Source of the DNA: Ignavibacteriales bacterium
Lineage (GTDB): Bacteria > Bacteroidota > Ignavibacteria > Ignavibacteriales > SURF-24
NCBI GenBank assembly: GCA_026390815.1
Contig: JAPLFH010000034.1
Span: 1 to 64,000 of the forward strand
Length of the DNA stretch: 64,000 nucleotides
Reading direction: 5' to 3'
This document shows positions 14,781 through 16,479 of the stretch, piece by piece. Every line of letters starts with the position of its first letter. Position 1 is the stretch's first letter. Under the pieces are notes generated by a model that did no database searches, was not told where the DNA came from, and saw only the letters and a program-made list of their open reading frames with translations. A program made the position numbers and the translations under genes.

Positions 14781-15512
14781 TCATTTCTTTATCAGCACAC
14801 CTGCCGCAACACCAGCAGCACCTGCAGCTATGATTGATGTAACTGACGGCCATTCAATCTTTGGTGGATTTTTTAATGTACCAATATATTCTTTCATCAA
14901 ATCTTCGTAACGTTTAAGTCCATAATCCAATCCTTGTTTATAGGCTTCCGCTTTCTGTTCCTTTAAAGTTATGATTGAATCTTTGAGTGCAACATAATTT
15001 TTATATGTATAATTAACTTCACCTAAAGCAGCTATTTGTTTTTTAAAATTATCAACTTCTTTGTGATCAGAAATGAACGTGGCGACAAACTGAATTGGTA
15101 CTTGAAATGTTCTAATCATAAAACCAGTTACAGGATGAGGAACCCGGGCAACTCCAATCGGTGCGGTTTTCAATTCGGGAAATGAACTACGCATTTCATC
15201 AACCAGCTCATCAGGCTCAAATAGATTTGCAATCTTAGTTTGCTGTTTAACGTTTTCAACTTTTAAATTGGTAACAGCCGTTTCTAAACTGTCAATCTTC
15301 TGTTTGTATACGAGCCCTTTCTCTTTCAATCCGGAAATAACCGATTCAATGCTGTCCCCCTTTTGAATAACCATTGCATATTTAGTTTTATAATCAGCCA
15401 AATCATTTTCGGCTTTTTCAATTTTCTTTTTTGAATTGCCCCAAAAAATATAATTCGAGATCAAGCTTCCTGCAAACAGGATTCCTAATACGATAGCAAC
15501 CCATTTAAGCAT
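14781..15512 (-). CDS. Coiled-coil membrane protein, spanin-like lysis accessory (putative)
   Basis: About 243 residues. The start is one of two adjacent ATGs (15515, 15512) after GGAGG; 15512 gives the better spacing. An N-terminal membrane helix (about 2-20) is followed by a long coiled coil (about 25-100), a mixed domain, a second helical stretch and a C-terminal Ala/Gly-rich hydrophobic segment (about 222-240). Its start overlaps the end of the amidase gene by 8-11 bp. This geometry (endolysin, then a membrane-anchored coiled-coil gene) resembles phage endolysin-spanin pairs. No sequence family was recognised, so the lysis role is inference. Confidence 0.55.
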   Translation of the reverse strand: MLKWVAIVLGILFAGSLISNYIFWGNSKKKIEKAENDLADYKTKYAMVIQKGDSIESVISGLKEKGLVYKQKIDSLETAVTNLKVENVKQQTKIANLFEPDELVDEMRSSFPELKTAPIGVARVPHPVTGFMIRTFQVPIQFVATFISDHKEVDNFKKQIAALGEVNYTYKNYVALKDSIITLKEQKAEAYKQGLDYGLKRYEDLMKEYIGTLKNPPKIEWPSVTSIIAAGAAGVAAGVLIKK

Positions 15513-16479
15513 CATGAACCTCCAAACGATTATTTTCCCAACTCTTGAATCCAAGTGACTGCGCTGCCAAGGCAATCAATTTTGGATCTCCTTGAACCAA
15601 TTCATAAAAAATAATGTGTCCATCCTGAACAGCATCTTTCAAACGAATATATGTATTTCTTCCGCCATCCTGCAATTCCCATAACAATCCTTTTACCATA
15701 TTTCCTGCCGAGCGATTCATTTTACTGAACTGAGCCACATTATCCTGAAATAATTTTTGTACCTGATCTGAAGTTAATCCCGCCGGAGCTTCTGCTGATG
15801 GTAAGCCGGGTGAAGTAGCTGTAACATCAACCAGTTGCAAACCGCATTCGTTAATTACTCTTTGCCAAAAAGAATTATCCGGCAGAGGATCGCTTTTATC
15901 TTCGCGAATATTTACGTGACCGATTATTCCTTTAAAATCTTTTAGCTGTTGCCCATAAAAAGCTGTGTAGTTACGCGGGATTTTCTTTTCAATATTGAAT
16001 GTTTGAGTTAGCTGATTTACCAATTGGACAACTGAATCAATCTGCTTTGGTTCATATTTATCAAAATACCGGTAACCTCGATAAGCCTGACCATTATCAT
16101 ACACTTCAGTGCGTGCCTTTAATGTGCGTGGACTAATAGTATCGAAGCAATAGAGATTTCCACCAGATTCAAGCAATCCGCCTTCGCTTGCAAGTTCAAT
16201 TCCTATAAACCGCTTCTCGAAAATAATTCTATCAGGATCCTTCCACTTTAATCCAAACTGATAAGCCCATCCAGCCGGATCAAACATCTGGTAAACTGTT
16301 CCGTCTCTATCAATAATGAATGCGGTTCCAACCATTTGTTTATCGCGTTTCCACCAATCCACGCTCGAAGCTGCCGAGCCGCCTACAGTATGATGTAGAC
16401 AGATTCCCGTTTTATTATTTACGTTTGGAAAATATTGATCAGCCGGAAGTTTTAAATTACTGCTAATAGTTAAAGCCAT
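15505..16479 (-). CDS. N-acetylmuramoyl-L-alanine amidase, PGRP/amidase_2 type (endolysin-like)
   Basis: Cuts peptidoglycan at the muramic acid-alanine bond. 324 residues with no signal peptide, as in phage endolysins. The amidase_2 domain covers about residues 15-215: zinc-site histidines in GICLHHTVGG (about 27-30), AFIIDRDGTVYQMFDP, FIGIELASEGG and the second site GHVNIREDKSDPLPD. The C-terminal 100 residues are not recognised. Start ATG at 16479 has AGAGGTG upstream. It overlaps the spanin-like gene downstream. No phage structural genes are nearby. Confidence 0.82.
   Translation of the reverse strand: MALTISSNLKLPADQYFPNVNNKTGICLHHTVGGSAASSVDWWKRDKQMVGTAFIIDRDGTVYQMFDPAGWAYQFGLKWKDPDRIIFEKRFIGIELASEGGLLESGGNLYCFDTISPRTLKARTEVYDNGQAYRGYRYFDKYEPKQIDSVVQLVNQLTQTFNIEKKIPRNYTAFYGQQLKDFKGIIGHVNIREDKSDPLPDNSFWQRVINECGLQLVDVTATSPGLPSAEAPAGLTSDQVQKLFQDNVAQFSKMNRSAGNMVKGLLWELQDGGRNTYIRLKDAVQDGHIIFYELVQGDPKLIALAAQSLGFKSWENNRLEVHDA

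Follow-up and report, generated by a model that had tools for sequence, protein, structure and literature searches.

What are two genes laid out like the lysis cassette of a phage doing among the housekeeping genes of a bacterium? The question is raised by an amidase gene and an overlapping gene for a membrane protein, found in the window, by which we mean the whole stretch of 64,000 nucleotides of Ignavibacteriales DNA that was analysed. An earlier reading, made from the sequence alone, had described the two genes as an endolysin-spanin layout without a phage, and had left it between a phage remnant, a tailocin release module and a domesticated lysis tool. Here we compare the pair with its relatives in bacterial genomes, prophages and viral contigs. 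The data would best be accounted for by a lysis pair that the host encodes and has co-opted from a cassette of the phage type, and we put the probability of this explanation at about 0.5.

An amidase gene overlaps the gene for a membrane protein

Both open reading frames proved to be real genes on the minus strand. The first, at 15505..16479, encodes a protein of 324 residues that matches Pfam Amidase_2 at 53.7 bits (cut-off 26) and has a lysis/amidase match in PHROGs at 43 bits. Its N-terminus is not hydrophobic, in agreement with the sequence-only reading, which had the amidase without a signal peptide. The second gene, at 14781..15512 on the same strand, encodes a protein of 244 residues if translation starts at 15515, or of 243 residues if it starts at 15512. 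The two had been said to overlap by 8-11 bp; the overlap is real, and conservation picks 8 bp out of that range (15505..15512, minus strand), as shown by the junction sequences, in which the overlap is 8 bp in seven of eight pairs and 1 bp in the remaining one (G352). For this reason we prefer the start at 15512. The predicted Shine-Dalgarno sequence of the second gene (GGAGGT, 15518..15523, minus strand) lies within the conserved C-terminal LEV codons of the amidase, and reads GGAGGT in seven of the eight pairs and GAGGT in G049. The 8-bp overlap probably couples the translation of the amidase to that of its partner.

The pair is rare and conserved as a unit

The pair was found in eight genomes (G000, G001, G047, G049, G008, G352, G600 and G623) belonging to five families, labelled f1, f2, f3, f5 and f43, and the partner gene lies directly downstream of the amidase gene in every one of them. 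Full-length relatives of the window amidase are thus present in seven other genomes, at 50-74% identity. When 96 relatives were searched, the partner was recovered in five and the amidase in 11, five of the latter being full-length and encoded in the same genomes as the partner. A partner profile run against 391 genomes of the class gave eight matches, five of them strong, with G352 newly found, and an amidase profile run against 296 genomes of the phylum gave 35 matches, three of them full-length, G600 among them. In the family of G600 (92 genomes) the partner profile produced six matches, two of which were strong (G600 and G623), while in the class of G600 (244 genomes) the amidase profile produced three matches at E 1e-30, two of which were pairs. 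The weak partner matches (three in the class and four in G600's family, partial and at about 20-22 bits) were discarded as coiled-coil chance matches. One further genome, G739, encodes an amidase with an apparent peptidoglycan-binding domain and no partner. The pair is therefore rare and patchy across the phylum, yet conserved as a unit.

The comparison of G600 with G623 was the one in which dN/dS was unsaturated, all others being saturated. It yielded a dN of 0.108 and a dS of 0.726 for the amidase (dN/dS about 0.15), and a dN of 0.068 and a dS of 0.797 for the partner (dN/dS about 0.08), so that the pair is under purifying selection where this can be measured. Pairless genomes of the same family yielded no empty site for comparison, as the neighbouring DinB gene is absent from them or too divergent, with no match in G002 or G004 and a weak one in G003.

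The amidase domain resembles the endolysins of prophages

In an alignment of the eight pair amidases, residues H29, H30, H188, K195 and D197 are invariant, and we take them to be a metal site with the pattern of AmpD and T7 lysozyme. Amidases from prophages of the same class align to columns 4-215 of the pair amidases (hhalign E 1e-49), and in the loci that encode them terminase, portal and head genes were read by eye. The amidase domain, at approximately residues 1-215 (15835..16479, minus strand), is thus homologous to the endolysins of this lineage's prophages. In a tree, which has no safe root, the eight pair amidases group together (support 72/89) next to the prophage ones. The C-terminal stretch of about 95 residues (228-324; 15508..15798, minus strand) looks like an extra domain: it is kept in all eight pair amidases, the alignments with phage relatives do not reach it, and shorter amidase matches end near residue 200-222.

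Searches beyond these genomes returned little. The amidase matched no NCBIfam family up to E 1, no PDB sequence at E 0.001 and no plasmid record; no relative of the full-length protein was found in IMG/VR, and the phage records gave five amidase-only matches at about 29% identity. AlphaFold models of the amidase and of its partner, built from a two-sequence alignment, had mean pLDDT values of 30.7 and 40.0 and were unusable.

Two other Amidase_2 proteins met in the course of these searches are worth recording. The only other one in the window's own genome (L031:9146-9766) has a lipoprotein-like N-terminus. A distant relative in G543 (L073:6685-10536) is a protein of 1283 residues that combines Amidase_2 with a caspase and a GDSL lipase, in surroundings that by eye resemble a CHAT/NTPase conflict system.

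The partner is hydrophobic at both ends and carries a coiled coil

The 243-residue partner begins with a predicted membrane segment (residues 5-23; 15444..15500, minus strand; hydropathy 2.1) that has no lipobox cysteine; indeed, seven of the eight partners, the window's included, contain no cysteine, and so lack a lipobox. The charge bias toward an N-in orientation is weak. A coiled-coil region follows at residues 29-98 (15219..15428, minus strand), where the heptad score was reached by none of 2000 shuffles; across all eight partners it was reached by 0 to 21 of 2000. A second helical stretch gave no heptad signal. At its other end the protein has a Gly/Ala-rich hydrophobic tail (residues 223-241; 14790..14846, minus strand; hydropathy 1.96). 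Such a tail is present in all eight partners, with a best 18-residue mean hydropathy of 1.2-2.1, weak in some. The background hydropathy cut-off passes only four of the eight partners; five of 194 open reading frames, seven of which are partners, pass it, namely these four and one other gene. Both the coiled coil and the hydrophobic C-terminal tail had been pointed out in the sequence-only reading, and both have held up, the one against the shuffles and the other across the family.

All strong matches to the partner came from the eight genomes, where they lie next to the amidase. No profile library gave a convincing family match, coiled-coil noise aside; a search of PDB sequences gave a single match at chance level; and neither IMG/VR nor the phage records contained a relative. 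Profile comparison detected no homology with the two-ended prophage proteins (hhalign probability 2.8%), and with viral proteins of the unimolecular-spanin type it gave a probability of 4.6%, with just 23 columns of the tail aligned. A scan for an o-spanin reading frame within or after the partner gene was negative at all eight loci, with a sensitivity that was not shown, as the same scan was also negative at ten of ten prophage controls. By definition, the missing lipobox rules out a unimolecular spanin. The partner is thus best described as spanin-like and not as a proven spanin: it occupies the right position and is hydrophobic at both ends, without detectable homology to spanins.

Phages with related amidases often share the layout

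We next consider how such amidases are arranged in phages. Among 13 prophage loci, a membrane gene of the two-ended build lies no more than two genes from the amidase in five (L032, L033, L034, L109 and L115) and three genes away in L113. Four others (L035, L108, L110 and L114) encode by eye a protein with an N-terminal segment and a C-terminus like an outer-membrane strand, and in the last three (L107, L111 and L074) neither bridging build occurs near the amidase. L108 and L110, from two members of a single genus (G016 and G029), represent almost the same prophage region.

A larger set was assembled from IMG/VR, consisting of the best 80 of 489 relatives of the prophage-amidase profile together with L211 and L128; these 82 loci include many near-identical phages and are not independent. 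In this set (best 80 of 489, plus two), a gene with a lipobox and a C-terminal membrane segment lies directly downstream of the amidase at 50 of the 82 loci, a two-ended gene without a lipobox at one, and the contig ends within 350 bp at 10. At the same loci (again the best 80 of 489, plus two), two-ended hydrophobic genes number 30 among the 235 close to the amidase and 1 among the 172 elsewhere. An amidase followed by a membrane-bridging gene is therefore a common layout in phages with this type of amidase. The window pair reproduces this layout without a phage; the earlier description of the locus in these very terms is supported by the downstream gene at 50 of the 82 viral loci (best 80 of 489, plus two) and by the homology to prophage endolysins. 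Across L131-L211 and L128, the succession of an amidase and a lipobox gene with a C-terminal membrane segment recurs in many contigs, the two genes frequently overlapping by 4 bp. In viral contig L128, the amidase is followed by a small membrane gene and then by a two-ended gene, with short overlaps.

Head, tail and terminase genes were not seen next to the pairs

The named neighbours of the window pair are housekeeping genes: PhoU, DUF6174, DinB, an aldo/keto reductase and a glyoxalase. Inspection, mostly by eye, revealed genes for phage heads, tails or terminase next to none of the eight pairs, and in a search of the window's own genome for two families, Terminase_6N and Phage_sheath_1, neither had a match. 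A scan confined to small reading frames showed no holin candidate preceded by a ribosome-binding site within 1.2 kb upstream at any of the eight loci; upstream of the G008 pair there is one hydrophobic reading frame of 62 residues without a ribosome-binding site. Downstream, small reading frames with a ribosome-binding site occur in G049 (56 residues) and G352 (32 residues) only. The absence of holin, capsid and tail genes reported from the sequence alone is in keeping with these results.

The surroundings of the other pairs vary. G001 shares the window's upstream DinB gene (53% identity) and, by eye, its aldo/keto reductase, and has a protein with GH19 and a peptidoglycan-binding domain nearby. 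The G008 pair is accompanied by a DUF1353 gene with a match to a PHROGs tail assembly chaperone, a calcineurin-like phosphoesterase, a GH19 protein and a membrane protein, the G047 pair by a membrane protein of the same family, and the G049 pair by a transposase (by eye). The neighbours in G352 are TIR-STING, TIR and GDPD proteins, with a match to the PADLOC model 'Effector, TIR'; those in G600 and G623 are a patatin and an AbiEii toxin gene, respectively. Defence-type genes thus stand beside a minority of the eight pairs, no two of them alike, which is suggestive only. At the G352 locus (L043:4692-9237), the TIR-STING and TIR proteins flank the amidase pair, one on each side, and inspection of the contig by eye revealed no cyclic-nucleotide synthase.

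The membrane protein shared by G047 and G008, with a fragment in G352 by eye, was considered as a core partner and rejected, having no match in the window's own genome. Its family, of 300-370 residues, occurs in 11 of 245 genomes of the class (L028:7851-8855, L029:14883-15938, L101 and L103-L106), next to hydrolases as varied as Amidase_2, M74 endopeptidase, Exo_endo_phos, subtilase and SIR2-like proteins, and the two members scanned had no Pfam family above the cut-off.

Discussion

How might such a pair work? If it is a lysis pair co-opted by the host, the amidase, made without a signal peptide, would remain in the cytoplasm until the inner membrane was breached from elsewhere, by a phage holin or by a host membrane-damaging effector, and would then reach and cut the peptidoglycan. 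The co-translated partner, with its N-terminus anchored in the inner membrane and its coiled coil running across the periplasm, would engage the outer membrane through its hydrophobic tail and complete the burst in the manner of a spanin. We infer the breach from outside because the scan upstream of the eight pairs turned up no small holin candidate that has a ribosome-binding site; the periplasmic orientation of the partner, its contact with the outer membrane and a use in defence or altruistic lysis would likewise be expected rather than observed features of the system. The sequence-only reading had made its proposal depend on the coiled coil and on where homologues of the 243-residue protein occur. 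The coiled-coil prediction holds, while all eight homologues lie outside phages, and the partner's role in lysis therefore rests on position and topology and not on homology.

The main rival to a lysis pair is an orphan effector-immunity pair of a type VI secretion system (T6SS), in which the amidase would be a T6SS-delivered antibacterial effector and the membrane-anchored partner a periplasmic immunity protein, an option absent from the sequence-only reading. It owes this rank to the presence of a T6SS in this genome, where the VipB sheath protein scores 313.8 bits and the run of reading frames around it (L129; contig C48, 1-19900) looks by eye like a T6SS cluster, evidence that covers one of the eight pair genomes. 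An effector gene followed by an immunity gene in one coupled operon of sporadic distribution is typical of T6SS pairs, and T6SS amidase pairs consist of an amidase without a signal peptide and a membrane-associated neighbour; the missing signal peptide would thereby be explained. In addition, one distant relative of the amidase (L116) lies near a DUF2235 lipase-like gene, by eye. Against this, neither a delivery domain nor VgrG, PAAR, Hcp or an adaptor was seen by eye in or beside the eight pairs, and the nearest kin of the amidase are prophage endolysins. Moreover, the usual T6SS immunity protein is soluble or lipid-anchored, and a membrane build at two ends is a better match to the lysis partners of phages. 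On balance we regard a T6SS origin as unlikely, if less so than the explanations that follow.

A similar objection applies to the idea that the amidase is a membrane-tethered peptidoglycan enzyme of the host, a cytoplasmic recycling or remodelling amidase like AmpD with no role in lysis. The presumed metal site and the cytoplasmic location predicted from sequence would suit such an enzyme, as would the lipoprotein-like N-terminus of the genome's only other Amidase_2 match; yet the kinship to prophage endolysins, the lack of any NCBIfam match up to E 1, the presence of full-length copies in just 5 of 96 relatives and a constant overlapping partner, which it leaves unexplained, together make it improbable. 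We give still less credence to a recent phage or tailocin remnant, that is, to what survives of a decayed element or to a module that releases particles whose genes lie elsewhere. The phage-type amidase domain, the phage-type GH19 genes near the pairs of G008 and G001 and the DUF1353 gene of G008 speak for it; against it, the same pair recurs in eight genomes of five families, under purifying selection where measurable, and neither the full-length amidase nor the partner has IMG/VR relatives. The lack of Terminase_6N and Phage_sheath_1 in the window's genome tells against both the phage remnant and the tailocin release module of the sequence-only reading; a contractile tailocin is rejected in particular, as the VipB found lies in the T6SS-like cluster. 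Its third option, a domesticated lysis tool, fits best, given the eight genomes from five families, the maintained order and overlap and the low dN/dS. A more specific proposal, that the co-opted pair is a holin-less lytic executioner in immunity, fired once the inner membrane is opened by the holin of an infecting phage or by a membrane-damaging effector of defence, and turning a lysis kit of the phage's own type into an altruistic or premature burst, is doubtful, standing between the T6SS pair and the tethered host enzyme in our estimate. Such an executioner would stand ready in the cytoplasm and consist of an endolysin-type amidase, extended by its C-terminal domain, and a coiled-coil spanin of a novel, two-ended kind.

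How does a co-opted lysis pair compare with known systems? It is similar to a phage endolysin with a unimolecular spanin of the T1 gp11 type in combining a wall enzyme with a bridging protein that has hydrophobic ends, as far as the available part of PMC6139136 describes these. There, the N-terminus of unimolecular spanins is that of a lipoprotein and their periplasmic domain consists mainly of beta-strands, whereas the window partner has an N-terminal membrane segment without a lipobox, a coiled coil, and no holin beside it. With the lambda Rz/Rz1 i-spanin/o-spanin system, as presented in the same portion of PMC6139136, it shares the N-terminal membrane segment and the coiled-coil domain; it differs in its hydrophobic C-terminal tail and in the lack of an o-spanin reading frame, in the scan that had no working positive control. 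The word 'Bacteroidetes' does not occur in the part of this spanin survey that was available. Flavobacterial phage lysis regions contain GH19 or amidase enzymes and membrane proteins, two with a proposed unimolecular spanin, according to the accessible text of PMC8776804. A host parallel is LypABC of Caulobacter, an immunity-like system of peptidase and ATPase components that controls GTA release by lysis, and for which the sections available of PMC13236601 report no holin-endolysin homologues. Like LypABC, the window pair would consist of host genes that serve regulated lysis apart from the life cycle of a phage, with a link between immunity and lysis, but it is endolysin-like. Finally, lysozyme- and papain-like peptidoglycan domains have been proposed as effectors of conflict systems, in the partial text of PMC7159879, in which Amidase_2 is not among the peptidoglycan effectors; unlike those systems, the window pair has no recognised EAD or NTPase component beside it. 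No description of the pair itself was found in the literature, judged by titles and the beginnings of abstracts in a search that covered a minority of subscription journals and no bioRxiv preprints.

For phages with related amidases, the data indicate a simple lysis layout, in which the amidase is directly followed by a gene with a lipobox and a C-terminal membrane segment. For the bacteria, if the co-option explanation is true, the pair would be a lysis module that belongs to the host and is conserved without a phage, made up of an amidase with a domain that is absent from its phage kin and a spanin-like protein of unusual build, with no lipobox, a coiled coil and hydrophobic stretches at both ends. 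It would then offer a testable case of bacteria keeping the lysis parts of phages, and a way into the question of how cells that have no holin themselves keep such a deadly enzyme in check.
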